A stretch of 37,982 nucleotides of DNA from Deltaproteobacteria bacterium (GTDB lineage: Bacteria > UBA10199 > JADFYH01), in NCBI GenBank assembly GCA_015233135.1, contig JADFYH010000028.1, positions 1 to 37,982 of the forward strand, written 5' to 3'. Of this stretch, positions 114 to 8,522 are shown in pieces. Position numbers and translations under genes: made by a program. Position 1 is the first letter of the stretch. Each line of letters starts with the position of its first letter. The notes under the pieces are model-generated. The model was not told where the DNA came from, made no database searches, and saw only the letters and a program-made list of their open reading frames with translations.

Positions 114-220
114 TTGCGATTTCGCATATCCCCTATTTTTTAGGCTTATCGATTGACAAGGCCCAAGGAAATTGTCTAGGCGGCCTAACAAGTTGTCCGA
201 ATTATTAATTAAGTATTTTT

Positions 221-494
221 CAGAGTTTAAGGGAATGCCGTGAAAATCGGCGACGGTCCCGCCACTGTGATAGGTTTTAGCTCTACTCGTTTAAGTCACT
301 GTCCCGCTAGAAACCTAATTACAGAATTTTCTTTAGGCGAGGCGCTCATGAAGGAGCAACCGGAGTGTACCCTAAGGTACATGAGGATTGCGACTGAGTG
401 AGCAACGAAGCATAAGGGAAATTATGTAGTTAGGTACGAGGGATGGGAAGGCAAGGGTAAGCGAAACGCCTTAAGTCAGGAGACCTAAATTCTG
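221..494 (+). promoter_or_regulatory. Cobalamin riboswitch
   Basis: The conserved core is plain: GGGAATGCCGTGAAAATCGG near 231-250, the B12 box GTCCCGCCACTGTGA ending at 270, and AGTCAGGAGACCT at 474-486. The ends pair as CAGAGTTT (221-228) with AAATTCTG (487-494), giving P1. Known behaviour of the family: adenosyl- or methylcobalamin binding represses downstream B12 uptake genes, here the btuB-like receptor at 551. The aptamer is unusually long. A stem TAGGTTTTAG/CTAGAAACCTA (271-317) and a long imperfect stem (314-330 with 417-433) carry about 85 extra bases with a repeat-like palindrome. The aptamer class is secure; the exact fold of the insertion is inferred. Confidence 0.95.
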
Positions 495-504
495 GAATTT
501 TGCA

Positions 505-550: not shown

Positions 551-2509
551 ATGAAACATCTCCTTCTTGCTGCTTTTGCGGCCTCTACAATTTTTTCTTT
601 TTTTACTCCTTGCTTGCTTGTTGCTCAAGCTCAGTTGGGAGAAATTCAAGTTTCGGCGGATGCTCCTCCGGAATCTTCTGAAAGGCCTTCTGCGTTTGTA
701 AGCGTCATTCAGCCCAAAGCCTTTGACACCCAAGTCAAAAGCCTGCCCGAATTATTGTCTGAACAAAGTGGGGTTCAAGTAAATCAATTTGGGGGACTGG
801 GCCATTTGTCCACCATCTCCATTCGCGGGAGCAGTGCCGAACAAGTGAGCGTGTTCGTGGATGGGGTCAAAATTAATACGGCCCAGGGCGGCGCGGTGGA
901 TTTTTCGAGTCTGCCTCTCGATCAAATCGATCATATTGAAATTATTAAAGGGGGCGCTTCCTCAGAGTTTGGTTCCGATGCCATGGGTGGGGTCATTCAA
1001 ATTAAGACCAAGCGGGCTTCGGCAAAAAAACAAAGTTATGAATTTTCGTTAGGAGGAGCATCTTTTAATACCCTGCAAATTCAAAACAGTTTTTCCCATC
1101 GCTTTTCAAAGTCCGCACTTTATTTGAGTCATAGCCATCTCCAAAGCGAGGGGGATTTTACTTTCCGTTCTACTCCTACTGAAATTGGAGGAGTGACTTT
1201 AGGAGGAGGCGAAAAATATACCCGAGAAAACAATCAATTTTTTAGCGAGAATGGTTTGCTAAAATGGGAGATTTTTCCTTCTGAAAAATGGGAGCTGCGA
1301 CTTCTTAGCGATTGGATGGGGTCAAGGCGTCATGTGCCTCCCACCGAGGAAGAGTTTATTCTACTAACGCCGGTGAATCCTGCAGAAGCAAAAGAACAGC
1401 TGCTTAAAAATTTAAGCAGTGCACAGTTGTTAGTTCACGATTTAGGGTTTAAGAATTTAGAATTAGAAGTTCAACCTTATTATCGTCTGGATCAAAGCCA
1501 TTTTGAAGATGCGAGTCCTGGTTTAGGTCCACCCATCGACACCCAATATAAAAATCAATCTTTTGGATCCAAGTTAGCGCTGCGATACCAGGGTCGCAGT
1601 GGAATTGTTGACCATAAAATCTCATTTTTCTATGAGCCGCGCCTTGACTGGCTTCGCAGCGAAGATTCTATCACTTCCCTCGAAGAAGAACATCATCGCT
1701 TTACCCATGCCTTTTATTTAGGAGATGAACTCTCTTTTTTCTCGCAAAGGCTCAGTGTTCAGCCTTCTCTTCGTTTTGAAAATACCACGGATTTTGCGTC
1801 CCGTTTTGCAGGGCATTTGGGTTTAATCTACAAAGCTCTCTCCTGGTTGGTCTTTAAAACAAATGTTGATCAGGCCTTTCGTTACCCCAATTTTAATGAA
1901 CTCTATTTTCCCAATCAGGGCATCATTCGTGGAAATCCGGAGTTAGCTCCAGAAAAATCCGTGAATATGGATGTGGGATTCGTGTTGGAACATCATTTAG
2001 GCCCACATCAATTCAGACATCAATTCAGCTATTTTAAAAATTGGATTGATAATTCCATTGTATTCGTTCCCATCTCTGCCTTTACCATTGCCCCCCTCAA
2101 CACCCAACAGGTACATACCCAAGGTTTTGAATGGAATTCCTTTGTTCATCTAGGTTCCCATGTGGATGTAGAGGGAAACTACACTTTTTTAAAAGCCAGT
2201 CTTCAAGATTCTGGGAAGCAACTTCCAGGTCGTGCCAAACATAAAGCCAATGGCAAGCTAACGCTCAAAAATTCTTGGGCAGCCCTCTATGTCTCCTTAC
2301 AATATATTGACCAATTACCCATCGATTTTCAAAACAGCACTTTTATCAAGTCCCGCTCGCAACTCGATTTGGGGGTCTCTCTTCTGTTTAAAAAACACCT
2401 TTCTTTCAACTTTGATGTCAAAAATGTCAGCAATGTTCAATTACTCGATTCGCGGGGCTTTCCCCTTCCGGGGCGCTCGTTTTTCTTAAGTGTGGGGGCT
2501 AAAATATGA
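551..2509 (+). CDS. btuB: TonB-dependent outer-membrane cobalamin receptor, BtuB-like
   Basis: Predicted outer-membrane receptor that imports corrinoids using TonB energy. The 652-residue protein begins with a signal peptide (MKHLLLAAFAAS to about residue 27), followed by a plug domain at about 45-155 with typical signatures: LPELLSEQSGV, SIRGSSAEQVSVFVDGVKI, and IEIIKGGASSEFGSDAMGGV. The remainder is beta-barrel, with FRYPNFNELYFP, GNPELAPEKS and a terminal strand SFFLSVGAKI. Length fits BtuB (about 600 residues) with a little more barrel. The cobalamin riboswitch just upstream, and btuF/btuC-like genes downstream, support the B12 assignment over siderophore transport. The next gene overlaps by 4 bases (ATGA), so translation is probably coupled. 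TonB and ExbBD are not in the window. Confidence 0.9.
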   Translation: MKHLLLAAFAASTIFSFFTPCLLVAQAQLGEIQVSADAPPESSERPSAFVSVIQPKAFDTQVKSLPELLSEQSGVQVNQFGGLGHLSTISIRGSSAEQVSVFVDGVKINTAQGGAVDFSSLPLDQIDHIEIIKGGASSEFGSDAMGGVIQIKTKRASAKKQSYEFSLGGASFNTLQIQNSFSHRFSKSALYLSHSHLQSEGDFTFRSTPTEIGGVTLGGGEKYTRENNQFFSENGLLKWEIFPSEKWELRLLSDWMGSRRHVPPTEEEFILLTPVNPAEAKEQLLKNLSSAQLLVHDLGFKNLELEVQPYYRLDQSHFEDASPGLGPPIDTQYKNQSFGSKLALRYQGRSGIVDHKISFFYEPRLDWLRSEDSITSLEEEHHRFTHAFYLGDELSFFSQRLSVQPSLRFENTTDFASRFAGHLGLIYKALSWLVFKTNVDQAFRYPNFNELYFPNQGIIRGNPELAPEKSVNMDVGFVLEHHLGPHQFRHQFSYFKNWIDNSIVFVPISAFTIAPLNTQQVHTQGFEWNSFVHLGSHVDVEGNYTFLKASLQDSGKQLPGRAKHKANGKLTLKNSWAALYVSLQYIDQLPIDFQNSTFIKSRSQLDLGVSLLFKKHLSFNFDVKNVSNVQLLDSRGFPLPGRSFFLSVGAKI

Positions 2510-3729
2510 TGAAAAAACCATCTCGAACCCTTTTTATTTGCTGCCTGGTCTTAGGCTTTTTTGGCTGCGGATCTGAAACCCAGAATGCAAGTCCTGTAGA
2601 CCCTTCAGCTCAGTTGTCTAGTCCTGCGGTTGCATCGAGTAGTGCAAACCCCAATTCTTTTCAGATTGTAAGAGAAGGCCAAAGCCTGCCTTTACAGAAT
2701 TTATTAGGGGCGCATGTCGGTGAGGAAATTCCCCTATCAGTTCTGGGTGCTAGTGGGGACATTTATTGGGTAACGATGGATCCCTTTGCAGGATACTTTG
2801 TCAGCCCGGGCAGATTGAGGTTAAGGGCCCCGGGTCGATTCTACATTGCGGCTTTGTCCGCAAATCAAAGCGATTATGTGGCGGTGGAAGTTTTGGAATC
2901 TCCGCCTAGTCCAGCTGAAGCGCCAGCTTCCTCAACTCCAGCCAGTGGTTCAACTCCTCCAACGCCTGAAAGCTCTCCTGCCCCAGTCTGTGTAGCGACC
3001 ACCTGTGAGCACGAAGCCAAAAACTGTGGGGAAATTTCAGATGGCTGTGGAGGAACTTTGCAGTGTGGAGTTTGTAGTAATCCTGGAGAAACTTGTGGAG
3101 GGGCCTCTGTTCCCAATGTTTGTGGACTTTCTCCTCCGCCTCCCCCAGCGACACCATCACGTCCAGCCTCTCTTCCCTCAGATCCCTTTATCGATGAAGT
3201 CATTAGCTTTACTCCTGGCCCGGGAGGGAGTACGGACACGACTGAAAACCGTGCTCGGGTTTTGGGTCCTCCTCGAGGCTGTGGACTTTCTTGTGGTTCT
3301 ACGGATGTCCTCTCTCTGGGTGTAAGAGGAGAAATTATCCTTCGCTCGGCCACACCGATCTTAAATGGAGAGGGTGTTGATTTTATCGTATTTGAAAATC
3401 CATTTTTTGCCGGTGGCAATCCTATGGGGCTTCTATTTGCCGAGTTAGGGGAAGTGGCAGTGAGTCAAAATGGCAGCGACTTTATTCCATTTCCTTGTGA
3501 TTCCGCGAATCGAAGTATGCTCTACCCCGGCTGTGCAGGAGCGCATCCCGTTTTTGCCAATGCGGATACCAACACGATATTACCTACGGATTATCGAGTT
3601 TCAGGAGGGGATGGCTTTGATCTGCAAGATTTAGGTTTAGATTGGATTCAATACATTCGAATTCGAGATCTGGATACGGTAGGTGGTTCGGGTTTTGATT
3701 TGGATGCAATTTCTATTGTTCATCAATAA
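2506..3729 (+). CDS. Predicted surface lipoprotein with Cys-rich segment, in B12 operon
   Basis: A 407-residue exported protein. The N-terminus (MMKKPSRTLFICCLVLGFFGC) is a lipoprotein signal with Cys21 as likely lipidation site, though the lipobox is loose. A Ser/Pro/Ala-rich linker (about 130-160) leads to a Cys-rich segment at 162-206 with the pattern CGEISDGCGGTLQCGVC, a motif I associate with myxobacterial secreted proteins. A second Pro-rich linker precedes a C-terminal domain (225-407) with GSTDVLSLGVRGEIIL, GEGVDFIVFENPF and GSGFDLDAISI. That domain recurs in uncharacterised bacterial surface proteins. It overlaps btuB by 4 bases, so it is very probably co-regulated by the riboswitch. 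A role in capturing B12 or a B12 carrier at the cell surface is inference from position; no catalytic motif is visible. Confidence 0.8.
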   Translation: MMKKPSRTLFICCLVLGFFGCGSETQNASPVDPSAQLSSPAVASSSANPNSFQIVREGQSLPLQNLLGAHVGEEIPLSVLGASGDIYWVTMDPFAGYFVSPGRLRLRAPGRFYIAALSANQSDYVAVEVLESPPSPAEAPASSTPASGSTPPTPESSPAPVCVATTCEHEAKNCGEISDGCGGTLQCGVCSNPGETCGGASVPNVCGLSPPPPPATPSRPASLPSDPFIDEVISFTPGPGGSTDTTENRARVLGPPRGCGLSCGSTDVLSLGVRGEIILRSATPILNGEGVDFIVFENPFFAGGNPMGLLFAELGEVAVSQNGSDFIPFPCDSANRSMLYPGCAGAHPVFANADTNTILPTDYRVSGGDGFDLQDLGLDWIQYIRIRDLDTVGGSGFDLDAISIVHQ

Positions 3730-3741
3730 TAAGGAGTTTTT

Positions 3742-4311
3742 ATGGATACTTCTCTGCGGCTTTCCAATTATGAACTTAGCCTGCAAAGCGTTTATCAAGT
3801 ACAGCCTCAGGTTGAAGCATTATATCGAGCTCAATATGCACAGCGTATTTCCACTCGCTGGTATTTTGCAGCAGGGGCAGATTCCAACTTCAAAACGGGT
3901 TCAGGAAACCATACTCAAGCTTTTGTGTCTATGGGTCCTCGCTTTTTTTTAGACAATAGCACTCAAGTTGATTTGCGTGCGATGAGTGCCTTCAATTTAG
4001 ACGAGAGAGGCTCTCAGCTTCCAGGTCGAAGTTATATCTCGAGTAGTCTTGAAGCTTGTGTAAGTTCTATTTATTCTTCTTCTATTCAATTTGCTGCGGG
4101 CTTTTGTGCTCAGTTGGGTGTTCAATGGTTTACTCAAGATTCAATTTCCCCGGCTTTTGTGGTAGAAGTAGGTTTGCAATTTTCATTAGGAGGTTTTGTG
4201 AGAGAACAGAGTCCTCCAATCTCTCCCCCTGCCTCTATTCAAACAGATTACGATTCATTAGGACGGATTCGACAAATTCAAGTTTCTAGAATTCGCGTAG
4301 TAGTTCATTAG
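3742..4311 (+). CDS. Small beta-rich protein of unknown function in B12 operon
   Basis: A 189-residue protein that I do not recognise. It has a strong ribosome site (AAGGAG, ending 7 bases before the ATG) and lies 12 bases after the lipoprotein gene. Alternating polar/hydrophobic strands such as RWYFAAGADSNF, QAFVSMGPRFFL, SIQFAAGFCAQLGVQWF and FVVEVGLQFSLGGF resemble outer-membrane beta-barrel strands. The frame is closed by stops just upstream, however, and no signal peptide is visible. Either the protein is cytoplasmic, or the true N-terminus has been lost by a frameshift. The last 30 residues (QTDYDSLGRIRQIQVSR) recall a YD/RHS-type repeat. Function unknown; co-transcription with the B12 genes is likely from spacing. 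Confidence 0.65.
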   Translation: MDTSLRLSNYELSLQSVYQVQPQVEALYRAQYAQRISTRWYFAAGADSNFKTGSGNHTQAFVSMGPRFFLDNSTQVDLRAMSAFNLDERGSQLPGRSYISSSLEACVSSIYSSSIQFAAGFCAQLGVQWFTQDSISPAFVVEVGLQFSLGGFVREQSPPISPPASIQTDYDSLGRIRQIQVSRIRVVVH

Positions 4312-4330
4312 ATAAAATTAAAGGAGCCTT

Positions 4331-5650
4331 ATGTTTAATCTTCAAAAAACAAAAAATGTGTTTGTAGGTCTGATTTTTACTTGTCTTGTTGCGTGTGGAG
4401 GCGGAGGCCTTCAAACAAGCCCTGCACCTAATTTGAATGAAAACAACACTCCTGCGGCCCTTTCCCTTTCCAGCAATTATCCTGCAGACATTGATATTGT
4501 CTCGGGAGATCCAGCGCTGAAGGATATTGCTTTTATTACTAGCAGCAGTGGAAGCCCTGCTCTGGTCTTTGCAGTCAACCTCAGCCAAAATCCGTTGCAA
4601 ATTTCAACACAATTTCGAGGATTACCCACTCTGGTTTCGGCAGGTATTCCCAATAATCTCGTGGTGCTGGATTCTACGCATGCCTTTCTACTCACCTCGG
4701 ATAAACTCATTTATTTTGATCCCAAAGAGGGCAGCGTAAAACAGGAAGTGGATCTGACAGAAGCAATTACCCTGAGTGATCCTGTACGACAGGTAAATGC
4801 GAGCAGTGTTGCGATGTCCGATTTGAGTGGAACTTTCATTCCTTCCTTTCCTGCGAGCTTAGCCGTTTCTGGAAATCGCATTGCAGTGAGTTTCTCAAAT
4901 TTAAATTATGCGCCGACGCTCACTGCCGCCCAAGGTTTAGTCCGTTTTTATGATTATCATCCTGAAAATTCGGTGGCTATTAGCTCCAGTAATGAACATT
5001 GGTTTACACATTGTGGATCCACTGCGCAGTCGGGTTTTAATACCAGCGGATTAACGGTAGTGGGGGACGGCCGTTTGCTGGTGACTTGTACGGGACTGAC
5101 CCGATTGGACTTGAGTGCGAGGAGCTCTCTCCCCGTTACTCCTGCGGGAATTGATGTCCTCGATTTTGCTACAGGAGACATTTTGGCTTCCCTGGATCTG
5201 GGATTAACGGCCCCTGCTTTTCGATCCTGGGCGGTTAGTTCGGATAGGAAAAAAGCTTATTTGGGAAGTTCATCCGGGGGATATCTCTTACAATTGAGTC
5301 TTGAAGGAGATGTAACTTTGGAACGGGGTCTTTCTAACCCCATCGTCATAACGGATTCTCACAATGGTAGCGATTTCATGGATGAGGTTCTGATAAGCAA
5401 TGATAACAGCAAACTCTTCGCCTTTAGCAGTAATAGCAGCTCGGTTTATACCTTGGATTTAACGCAAACGAATATGCCTATTTTGACACAACGAACAGTT
5501 GATTTAAGTGCAGCTGGAAGCCCGGGAGGGATTACGGGCGTGGGACCTGCGGCACTGCGTCAAGGGCGGCCAGGTGTAGATTTTACAGGGCCTGATTTAT
5601 GGGTTTTGACGGGGAATCCTGGGACCTTGGCAGCGATTCGGAGTTATTGA
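4331..5650 (+). CDS. Lipoprotein with beta-propeller-like repeats, candidate BtuG-like B12-capture protein
   Basis: A 439-residue exported lipoprotein. The signal MFNLQKTKNVFVGLIFTCLVAC gives Cys22 after LVA, followed by a Gly-rich tether. The mature part is made of repeated short strand-turn units: PNNLVVLDSTHAFLLTSDKLIYFD, VSGNRIAVSFSN, VVGDGRLLVTCTG, VSSDRKKAYLGSSSG, ISNDNSKLFAFSSNSSSVYTLDL. This is the rhythm of YVTN/WD-like beta-propellers. The start is set by AAGGAG 7 bases upstream. In Bacteroides, the surface lipoprotein BtuG is a beta-propeller that binds B12 tightly and sits on BtuB. A propeller lipoprotein in a riboswitch-led btuB operon is therefore suggestive, but homology to BtuG cannot be established by reading. 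Confidence 0.75.
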   Translation: MFNLQKTKNVFVGLIFTCLVACGGGGLQTSPAPNLNENNTPAALSLSSNYPADIDIVSGDPALKDIAFITSSSGSPALVFAVNLSQNPLQISTQFRGLPTLVSAGIPNNLVVLDSTHAFLLTSDKLIYFDPKEGSVKQEVDLTEAITLSDPVRQVNASSVAMSDLSGTFIPSFPASLAVSGNRIAVSFSNLNYAPTLTAAQGLVRFYDYHPENSVAISSSNEHWFTHCGSTAQSGFNTSGLTVVGDGRLLVTCTGLTRLDLSARSSLPVTPAGIDVLDFATGDILASLDLGLTAPAFRSWAVSSDRKKAYLGSSSGGYLLQLSLEGDVTLERGLSNPIVITDSHNGSDFMDEVLISNDNSKLFAFSSNSSSVYTLDLTQTNMPILTQRTVDLSAAGSPGGITGVGPAALRQGRPGVDFTGPDLWVLTGNPGTLAAIRSY

Positions 5651-5740
5651 TTTCTGCATGGGCTTGACCTTAAGATCCAGCTGTGGCACAGCGGACCAAT
5701 ATTACAGCAGTAATTTTTATCTGATCGAAAGGTCTGGCCA

Positions 5741-6538
5741 TTGAACTCTATCTTTTTATTTTCGTTGCGGGCTAAAAAATGCATTGAGCTTCAAATTCCG
5801 TTGGCTAAATCTTCGGATTTTGAGGTGTTGAAGGGTTTGTTGCCTAAAAATTTGAGAGGGATTAGTTTATCCAAACCGGAAGCTCCAGAAAAAAAGGCCT
5901 TGGAATTTTATAAGGAGTGCCGTGAACCCTATGTTGCCCGTTATCTGACTGACGTTGGAGAAAAACTTCTTCATCTGGGTCAGGCTATGGGGGCCTTGAA
6001 GTTGTTGGAGTGGGCTTCTAACCTGGAAAAAAGTTCACGAGTTACATTGATGCATGCTTGGGCAAAATTAGGTTTGGGGCGTTTGGAAGAAGCCGAGCAG
6101 GATATAAAGGTATTGCTCAAATGGCATCCGCGAAATTCGGTGGCCCAATTTTTAATGGGCAAGGTGTTTTTCCAGCGTAGTGATCATCAAAAGGCCCAAG
6201 AATATTTTGCTCTGGCCCTTCGTTCAATTGAACCTTCTAATGTTTATTTAATGCTGTTAGAGACGTTTTCAAAGTTTAACCAAATTTTAATTGATCGGGA
6301 TTCTTTATATTCCAAGAAACTTTCGTCGCGACATTTATATAAAGAAATTGAAGGGCTTAAAAATCGTGCGGCAAAGCTCAAACAAAGCATTGAAAAAACT
6401 TCCAATAATTCCGAACTCCAAGGAATTGGGGTATATTTGGAAGGCCTGGAAAAGCTTTTTGAAAGCTGGTTGGCTGAAATGGGTGCACGCCCCGGTTTTT
6501 TCAAAGAAGTACCGAGTACTCAATTTCAGCATTTATAG
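5741..6538 (+). CDS. TPR-repeat protein
   Basis: A 265-residue predicted cytoplasmic protein with tetratricopeptide-like helices at about 75-170: LLHLGQAMGALKLLEWA, HAWAKLGLGRLEEAEQDIKVLLKWHP, FLMGKVFFQRSDHQKAQEYFALAL. The third unit is a near-canonical TPR. A C-terminal charged helical region follows. The start is TTG with GAAAGG 8 bases upstream; no ATG fits the frame near the N-terminus. The 3' end overlaps the likely start of the btuF-like gene. No signal peptide is seen. A scaffold role is all that the fold suggests; the link to B12 uptake is positional only. Confidence 0.7.
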   Translation: MNSIFLFSLRAKKCIELQIPLAKSSDFEVLKGLLPKNLRGISLSKPEAPEKKALEFYKECREPYVARYLTDVGEKLLHLGQAMGALKLLEWASNLEKSSRVTLMHAWAKLGLGRLEEAEQDIKVLLKWHPRNSVAQFLMGKVFFQRSDHQKAQEYFALALRSIEPSNVYLMLLETFSKFNQILIDRDSLYSKKLSSRHLYKEIEGLKNRAAKLKQSIEKTSNNSELQGIGVYLEGLEKLFESWLAEMGARPGFFKEVPSTQFQHL

Positions 6539-7331
6539 TTTTATCTTTCTCTATTCTTTTCCCCTTTTTTCTTTTGAACGCGTCATCTCCCTCAAACCCA
6601 ATATTACCGAAGTGGTTTTTGCTCTTGGCCTAGGAAACAAGTTGGTGGGGGTAACCAGTTATTGCGACATTCCTCCTGAAGCAAAAAAAATCACTCATGT
6701 CTCCGATTATATTCAGCCTTCTTTGGAAAAAGTCATCGCCCTAAAACCCGATCTTATTTTAACTTCACAAGAAAATAGTTCACGCCGAGAAATAGAATTC
6801 CTTATCGAAAAAGGGTACCGCGTCGAAAATAGCAAATGGGACACCTTGGATAACAGCTTAGAAAGTATTTTAAATTTGGGTCTACTCTTGGGTAAAAAGG
6901 AAATCGCTGAAAAATTGACGCAGGAAATAATAAATAAATTAAACAATATTGCGTCAAAAAATTTAGGAGTAAAAAAGAAAGTACTTTTCGTTGTAGGACA
7001 GCAACCCCTGATTGTTGCTGGATCTAATAATATTTTTGGTGACGTTGCCCATTATTTAGGTTTGGAAAATGTGGCGGCCCAAAGCAAACTCAAATATCCA
7101 AATTATTCTCTTGAAATGCTTGTCAAAAGCTCACCCGATCTGATCATCGATTTGTCGATTGGAATGGAAGGAACTCAAAAAAGTGAAAAAGATTTGCTGT
7201 CCTGGTGGAGGCAATATCCTTGGGTGCCAGCAGTAAAAAATGATCGTGTTTATTTTTTTCACATGGAAGAACTCAGGGCGTCACCTCGTTTTCCGGAGGC
7301 GGTGGAGAGGATATCGAGGATGATTAGGTAA
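6483..7331 (+). CDS. btuF: Periplasmic cobalamin-binding protein, BtuF-like
   Basis: Predicted substrate-binding protein of a B12 ABC importer (helical-backbone class III fold). Signature stretches are RVISLKPNITEVVFALGLG, LVGVTSYCDIPPEA, VSDYIQPSLEKVIALKPDLIL, QQPLIVAGSNNIFGDVAHYLG and the C-terminal NDRVYFFHMEELRASPRFPEA. These match BtuF and related metal-chelate binding proteins. The frame extends upstream to 6291 inside the TPR gene, but GTG at 6483 places a basic segment (SKKYR) before a hydrophobic stretch (FSIYSFIFLYSFPLF) as signal peptide, giving about 282 residues. The start is therefore tentative and overlaps the TPR gene by 56 bases. The btuC-like gene follows after 40 bases. Confidence 0.85.
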   Translation: MHAPVFSKKYRVLNFSIYSFIFLYSFPLFSFERVISLKPNITEVVFALGLGNKLVGVTSYCDIPPEAKKITHVSDYIQPSLEKVIALKPDLILTSQENSSRREIEFLIEKGYRVENSKWDTLDNSLESILNLGLLLGKKEIAEKLTQEIINKLNNIASKNLGVKKKVLFVVGQQPLIVAGSNNIFGDVAHYLGLENVAAQSKLKYPNYSLEMLVKSSPDLIIDLSIGMEGTQKSEKDLLSWWRQYPWVPAVKNDRVYFFHMEELRASPRFPEAVERISRMIR

Positions 7332-7371
7332 GGGTGCAATTGGGGAAAAAACCGAATTAAAAAGAGTTTTA

Positions 7372-8346
7372 ATGTTCCAAAAATTCAAACTCAAAATAAG
7401 TATTCTTATTTTATTTTTTTTCTTTTCCGTTTTTCTTTCCTTGAGTGTGGGTGTGTCCCAATTTTCATTCCAATCTTTTCTTTCAGCTTCTAATCAAGAA
7501 ATCATCCTGCAACTTCGTCTTCCCCGAATTCTTCTGGGGGCTTTAGTCGGCATTGCTCTTTCCGTTTCAGGGGCTGCTTTTCAGGCCTTGCTGCGTAATC
7601 CTCTGGCAGATCCTTTTATTCTTGGTGTTTCTGGTGGTGCGGCCTTGGGAAGTGTGTTGGCAGTGGGTTTGCATTTACCCTTTATTTGGGTTTCGCTATT
7701 CGCCTTTGGGGCGGCCTTGCTCTCCATGTTATTGATTTATAGCTTGGCTCAGACGAAAGGCCGTTTGAATCCCCACACCTTGCTTTTGGTGGGCGTGCTT
7801 TTTAATACCACCACTTTTGCGCTTATCTTGTTTATCAATGCCTTGGTTTCTATGGAAGATCTGCACCGCATCTGGTTCTTGATGGTGGGCTCGCTCGAAG
7901 CCATTGAATATTCCCGCTTGGCTTTGGTCGCTTTTCTGGTTTTTTTAGGTTTGGGGATTATTTTTTACGATGCCTCTTCCTTGAATCTCCTGACATTGGG
8001 AGAAGAGAATGCAAGCCTGTTGGGCGTGGAGGTTGAAAGGGTACGCACCCGAGTTTTTTTTGCCGCCTCGCTTATGGTAGGGGCAATTGTTTCAGTGAGT
8101 GGATTGATTGGTTTTGTAGGTTTGGCCGTACCCCACATCGTCCGTTTGTGGCTGGGTGCCGATCATCGCCTGCTGATTCCCTCCACCGCAGTTTTTGGAG
8201 CCAGCTTTTTAGTCTTATCCGATTTTATTGCACGGATTGCTTTTTCAGGAGAAAATTTTCAAACTCAGCTTCCGGTGGGAGTGCTTACCGCCCTGATTGG
8301 CGCACCCTTGTTTTTTTATTTGTTAAGACATGAAACGAGGGGTTAG
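7372..8346 (+). CDS. btuC: FecCD-family permease of B12 ABC importer, BtuC-like
   Basis: Inner-membrane permease of 324 residues, the usual size for BtuC/FecCD. About ten hydrophobic helices are visible. Family signatures include LRLPRILLGALVGIALSVSGAAFQALLRNPLADPFILGVSGGAALGSV near the N-terminus, then LLTLGEENASLLGVEVERVR, and SGLIGFVGLAVPHIVRLWLGADHR, the cytoplasmic loop that contacts the ATPase. It follows the btuF-like gene and should form the channel for B12 delivered by it. The partner ATPase (BtuD) is not downstream: the next gene is nadC. The ATPase must be elsewhere or shared. Confidence 0.9.
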   Translation: MFQKFKLKISILILFFFFSVFLSLSVGVSQFSFQSFLSASNQEIILQLRLPRILLGALVGIALSVSGAAFQALLRNPLADPFILGVSGGAALGSVLAVGLHLPFIWVSLFAFGAALLSMLLIYSLAQTKGRLNPHTLLLVGVLFNTTTFALILFINALVSMEDLHRIWFLMVGSLEAIEYSRLALVAFLVFLGLGIIFYDASSLNLLTLGEENASLLGVEVERVRTRVFFAASLMVGAIVSVSGLIGFVGLAVPHIVRLWLGADHRLLIPSTAVFGASFLVLSDFIARIAFSGENFQTQLPVGVLTALIGAPLFFYLLRHETRG

Positions 8347-8390: not shown

Positions 8391-8504
8391 AACCTACTGA
8401 CGAGTCGCCAATTAAACTGACACAATGCGACTCTCTAGTACAACCGGCGGTAGGGTAAGCCCCGGTGGGCTGTCCGATAAACTGCGACTTGTTGTTAGTA
8501 GGTT
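8391..8504 (+). ncRNA. Candidate structured 5' leader RNA of nadC (unidentified class)
   Basis: A 164-base gap separates btuC from nadC and contains nested helices. P1: AACCTACT (8391-8398) with AGTAGGTT (8497-8504), 8 perfect pairs enclosing about 98 bases. P2: GAGTCGC (8402-8408) with GCGACTC (8427-8433). P3: ACCGG (8443-8447) with CCGGT (8462-8466), competing with AGCCC/GGGCT (8458-8471). The 5' strand of P2 can instead pair with GCGACTT (8484-8490), giving an alternative fold. P1 ends only 8 bases before the nadC Shine-Dalgarno sequence GGAAG. This layout fits a cis-regulatory RNA acting on translation. It does not match any riboswitch or ribozyme consensus that I can recall. Confidence 0.5.
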
Positions 8505-8522
8505 ATAGTTTTGGAAGAATTT

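Follow-up and report, generated by a model that had tools for sequence, protein, structure and literature searches.

Introduction

In the BtuB1-BtuG1 system of B. theta (8blw; PMC10404256) the gene for a TonB receptor is followed by that for a lipid-anchored beta-propeller, and BtuG1 extends beyond its propeller by about 250 C-terminal residues, which are homologous to BtuH2 and give the protein two B12 sites. BtuH2 itself consists of three Ig-like N-terminal domains and a globular, B12-binding C-terminal domain (7biz; PMC8941943). BtuG has been called exclusive to Bacteroidetes (PMC6143338), and lipoprotein-capped TonB transporters have been called apparently exclusive to the same group (PMC10404256). 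Two further families are relevant here: DUF4465/BtuJ, which comprises secreted beta-rich domains found in riboswitch-controlled B12 loci of several phyla (PMC13398666, PMC12751083), and the LIC_13355 lipoproteins (NF033170), named for a Leptospira surface protein which is reported to bind host plasminogen and in whose description B12 is not mentioned (PMC11891782). In the papers we found on the latter family it is not linked to B12.

Here we describe a B12 locus from outside Bacteroidota. The window is a stretch of 37,982 nucleotides from a Deltaproteobacteria bacterium (contig JADFYH010000028.1). A preliminary description of it, made from the sequence alone, had proposed a riboswitch-led B12 uptake locus with two extra surface lipoproteins, one of them a possible independent or distant counterpart of BtuG.

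Results

A B12 uptake locus with two additional lipoprotein genes

The locus joins an ordinary B12 operon core to an unusual outer-membrane stage (Table 1). Its riboswitch scored well above the gathering score of RF00174 (31.5 bits) and is the only cobalamin riboswitch in the genome (2.6 Mb, 98% complete). It is followed on the same strand by btuB, a lipoprotein gene (LP2), a small orphan gene (S3), a propeller lipoprotein gene (PROP), a TPR protein gene, btuF and btuC. The proposal of a riboswitch-led uptake locus was borne out by the riboswitch score and by the BtuB, BtuF and BtuC models, with the open reading frames lying where the preliminary description had placed them. Each of the three Btu proteins is supported by a family model, none of them above its equivalog cut-off: BtuB reached 198 bits against the 600 bits of TIGR01779, yet this was its best-matching model, and we base the assignment on that match together with the riboswitch and the neighbouring btuF and btuC. 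LP2 starts within the btuB stop at an ATGA (positions 2506-2509), as had been noted, and btuF, for which a GTG is the likely start, overlaps the TPR gene in a different frame. Terminator-like sites within the locus stretch were not more frequent than in shuffled sequences. At the locus, no btuD was identified adjoining btuC.

Table 1 Features of the B12 uptake locus in the window and second propeller genes at related loci.
Feature	Locus	Position	Strand	Remarks
Cobalamin riboswitch (RF00174)	window	186-504	+	65.4 bits, E 4e-14
BtuB-type TonB-dependent receptor	window	551-2509	+	Plug and TonB barrel; TIGR01779 TonB-B12 best NCBIfam model, E 2.3e-58
LP2, lipoprotein, proposed BtuH-like B12-binding protein	window	2506-3729	+	Lipobox; AlphaFold2 model; Foldseek
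LP2 C-terminal domain (LIC_13355-like)	window	3172-3726	+	Conserved, riboswitch-linked; fused to propellers elsewhere
S3, orphan ORF between two lipoprotein genes	window	3742-4311	+	189 aa
PROP, beta-propeller lipoprotein, proposed BtuG-like lid and B12 capture protein	window	4331-5650	+	Lipobox; AlphaFold2 pTM 0.73
TPR protein	window	5741-6538	+	TTG start
BtuF-type periplasmic binding protein	window	6483-7331	+	Peripla_BP_2 E 2.3e-29; PRK03379 BtuF E 1.9e-35
BtuC-type permease	window	7372-8346	+	FecCD E 5.4e-82; BtuC models best
Second propeller gene	L063	10475-11878		
Second propeller gene	L052	7556-8902		
Second propeller gene	L060	7163-8533		
Second propeller gene	L064	7459-8901		
Second propeller gene	L069	11864-13378		
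Second propeller gene	L095	2184-3746		
Second propeller gene	L071	784-2241		

The genome encodes seven domains that match PF02310, the B12-binding domain, and has no match to CbiC, from which we conclude that the organism uses B12 and, by the CbiC marker, does not synthesise the corrin ring, as expected for a B12 scavenger. The closest named relatives, at five named loci found with a narrowed profile from alignment A1, are mostly MAGs titled Deltaproteobacteria bacterium.

The preliminary description had suggested one transcript for the four genes between btuB and btuF/btuC; membership of a common system is supported for LP2 and PROP and is not supported for S3. From the single ATG of S3 no signal peptide is encoded, and the gene lacks a homologue among 45 genomes of the class; perhaps it stands outside the uptake system. 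The TPR gene is present as described, its product has no evident signal peptide, and relatives of it lie directly before btuF in three related genomes. In several relatives the gene for PROP and the C-domain is separated from btuF by a second propeller gene (Table 1), a position at which the window has only the TPR gene.

Downstream of the locus, between btuC and a nadC-like gene, lies a structured intergenic element (positions 8391-8505, forward strand; -43.5 kcal/mol, z -3.05). The same genome holds a second copy, 93% identical, at positions 1296-1396 of locus L145 (reverse strand), near an ORF with a B12-binding domain and what appears by inspection to be a PIN-type toxin pair. The element matched no Rfam family at cut-off (a hammerhead-like match reached 13.6 bits) and nothing in IMG/VR.

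PROP is a predicted propeller lipoprotein linked to btuB

PROP is an acidic protein with a signal peptide and a lipobox cysteine (...LVAC), and the Cys-Gly of the lipobox is conserved in the homologue alignment A1. Structure prediction had been named as the check that could refute a propeller, and it gave one: the AlphaFold2 model, built from six sequences, is all-beta with a beta-propeller fold. Searched with Foldseek, the model had more than 1000 PDB matches at E ≤ 0.001, those listed being overwhelmingly beta-propellers. The best was E. coli YncE (E 1e-9; 3vgz, 7seu), which shares the fold but, unlike PROP as proposed here, is no lipoprotein lid of a B12 receptor. BtuG was absent from the best 50 PDB matches.

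We found 18 strong homologues of PROP in the class of the window. In 16 of these btuB and a cobalamin riboswitch lie upstream, and the remaining two lie at contig ends. Homologues mostly away from btuB and such riboswitches had been named as a second ground for refutation; the neighbourhood was present in all 16 cases not cut by a contig end. In the window itself LP2 and S3 separate PROP from btuB. In an unclassified MAG a PROP homologue (locus L096, positions 2-1141) precedes a TetR-like gene and a long ORF (1967-5260) which, on inspection, resembles a B12-dependent acyl-CoA mutase.

At the level of sequence, PROP had no significant match in Pfam, NCBIfam or PDB, including PF16819 and the BtuG structures, and a PF16819/BtuG search of the PROP family matched three of 19 members with a best E of only 0.02. 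Direct comparison of PROP with BtuG by hhalign gave 80% over 133 columns only, with no sequence match at E ≤ 1e-3. In other genomes of the same class (L110, L111) the slot after btuB is occupied by a different propeller lipoprotein with weak similarity to DUF5074. We took DUF5074 to be the Pfam family of BtuG-type proteins because a DUF5074 protein adjoins btuB in another phylum (L107) and because fused DUF5074 propellers match BtuG structures. Since iterated profile matches are circular for family assignment, we used non-iterated profiles and a reversed-sequence control for the relation between PROP and BtuG; by this control the PB0 profile was somewhat noisy, with a reversed match as good as E 3e-4, and only PB0 matches well below this value were counted. 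In such comparisons PROP matched the BtuB-linked DUF5074-like propellers at 98.7% over 313 columns, and these in turn matched BtuG at 98.9% over 336 columns. Propellers resemble one another in general, and profile similarity among them is not specific to B12. The chain of profiles from PROP through DUF5074-like intermediates to BtuG therefore supports, and does not prove, a common descent of the two proteins.

LP2 is a second lipoprotein with a widespread C-terminal domain

LP2, likewise acidic, has a signal peptide and a lipobox cysteine (...FFGC), so that both of the lipoproteins proposed earlier carry these signals. It is built of an Ig-like N-terminal domain, a linker rich in proline and cysteine and a conserved C-terminal domain. 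The AlphaFold2 model is of low confidence overall (pTM 0.42). Among 350,542 PDB chains its sole Foldseek match at E ≤ 1e-3 was chain B of 8blw, B. theta BtuG1 (rank 1, E 8.3e-4, probability 1.00), but the TM scores were only 0.26 and 0.18 and the model is weak. Ig-domain structures were also among the matches. We regard this low-TM match as a strong lead and not as proof, and the domain through which the two proteins match as presumptive.

The C-terminal domain matched no PDB sequence at E ≤ 10, and hence none of BtuH. At E ≤ 0.01, 37 of 39 such domains matched the LIC_13355 model NF033170, weakly, with LP2 of the window at 43.1 bits against a curated cut-off of 120 bits. In being a secreted beta-rich domain of riboswitch-controlled B12 loci in several phyla LP2 resembles DUF4465/BtuJ; membership of that family was rejected, as none of the 39 domains reached E ≤ 1 against the Pfam model of DUF4465, and BtuJ1 (9fct) was absent from the best 50 folds for the LP2 model. 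Plasmid searches returned no named carrier of the domain.

PROP and the LP2 domain are fused in relatives and follow cobalamin riboswitches

Ten genomes of the class encode PROP and the LP2 C-domain in a single ORF of 647-820 residues directly 3' of btuB, with btuF and btuC behind it on contigs that extend far enough. A propeller fused to an LP2-type C-domain and adjoining btuB also occurs in three genomes of other phyla (L086, L133 and L140). The fused propeller of L140 scored above the DUF5074 cut-off (two of the three were scanned), and a joint profile of the three propellers matched the BtuG structures 8ptd/8ptf (E 2.4e-14) and 8blw_B (E 9.3e-14). Fusion elsewhere of genes that are separate is classic evidence for joint action. 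The fusions are thus evidence that PROP and LP2, separate in the window, act together, and the fused architecture is that of BtuG1. In this our findings go further than the preliminary description: LP2 is as important as the propeller, its C-domain being fused to propellers in relatives and its model having its best match in BtuG1, the BtuG with a BtuH domain.

Across 241 genomes a C-domain profile had 56 strong matches (E ≤ 1e-40). In 46 of the 56 loci, including all 16 outside the class of the window, a cobalamin riboswitch of the same strand lay no more than 7 kb upstream, and most of the exceptions were close to the end of a contig. As a genome has one to a few riboswitches, any one gene would show such linkage by chance with a probability well below 1%. 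A propeller gene lay within 4.5 kb of the C-domain in 49 of the 56, and no btuB was present in the stretch read in 27, some of which are cut by contig ends. Five loci (L084, L085, L090, L125 and L138) have the C-domain with neither propeller nor btuB nearby, four of them with an upstream cobalamin riboswitch, so that the domain may also function independently of a receptor.

Discussion

The locus of the window most likely works like BtuB-BtuG-BtuH: we put at roughly 70% the probability that it is a B12 uptake operon under riboswitch control in which the outer-membrane stage operates as in Bacteroides. We build this reading on observed features, namely the gene order, the riboswitch, the lipoboxes, the propeller prediction, the conserved linkage and the fusions. 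Cobalamin riboswitches permit expression when B12 is low. BtuB would then serve as the TonB-driven channel, and PROP, anchored by its lipid, would sit over BtuB as a lid and capture B12. LP2, with an Ig-like stalk and a jelly-roll-like C-domain, would bind B12 and pass it to the pair of propeller and BtuB, as is thought for the BtuH domain, after which BtuF and BtuC would carry it onward to the cytoplasm. We infer the B12-capture role of the two lipoproteins, their surface location, the binding of B12 and the movement of the lid. To our knowledge no export signal has been defined for this group, in which the Bacteroidetes export signal is not expected.

As in BtuB1-BtuG1, a TonB receptor gene under cobalamin riboswitch control precedes a lipid-anchored propeller, a second domain is fused C-terminally to the propeller (in relatives of the locus), and BtuG1 itself is the best PDB match of the LP2 model. 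The differences are that the locus lies outside Bacteroidota, that PROP is too divergent for a direct sequence match, and that the window carries the two domains as separate lipoproteins, the second without sequence similarity to BtuH. LP2 shares with BtuH an Ig-like N-terminal and a globular C-terminal domain in its predicted model, whereas it has one Ig-like domain where BtuH2 has three, and B12 binding is proposed only. By sequence criteria the proteins of the window lie outside both BtuG and BtuH.

PROP and LP2 might instead serve B12 uptake other than as a lid, storing or carrying B12 while facing the periplasm or borne on vesicles, and touching BtuB transiently or not at all. B12 is bound on vesicles of B. 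theta by its BtuJ proteins (PMC12751083), and the C-domain loci read without btuB would fit such a role; however, PROP follows btuB wherever the contig allows, and its fusion to the C-domain mirrors BtuG1 of the BtuB1G1 complex, so we consider stores or carriers improbable. A role apart from B12, for example in adhesion or envelope structure, with the lipoproteins merely sharing the operon, has a precedent in Leptospira LIC_13355, for which in vitro binding of host plasminogen and cells has been reported (PMC11891782). The linkage of the C-domain to riboswitches across phyla is hard to explain without a role in B12, as is its repeated fusion to BtuB-linked propellers, and we regard this explanation as very improbable.

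A different question is that of ancestry, where PROP could be an unrelated YncE-like recruit whose BtuG-like function reflects convergent operon design and not common descent, an idea compatible with a lid of BtuBG(H) type. The weak direct similarity between PROP and BtuG and the nearest fold being YncE, of a large superfamily, speak for recruitment, against which stand the BtuB-linked DUF5074-like propellers of the same class, which bridge PROP and BtuG by profile, and the fused propellers of other phyla, which match BtuG directly. We think recruitment rather unlikely, though the likeliest of the three alternatives. The suggestion of an independent or distant BtuG counterpart outside Bacteroidota is supported by the propeller fold and by the linkage to btuB and the riboswitch.

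On balance we favour the view that the LP2 C-domain is an unrecognised B12-binding domain present in many phyla, which together with BtuB-linked propellers would form lipoprotein-capped B12 receptors far beyond Bacteroidota, BtuG1 of Bacteroides being one instance of an older and wider module. The locus and its relatives argue against the exclusivity to Bacteroidetes of BtuG and of lipoprotein-capped TonB transporters, and they offer a testable function, the binding of B12, for a domain that is widespread, uncharacterised and related to the LIC_13355 lipoprotein of Leptospira.
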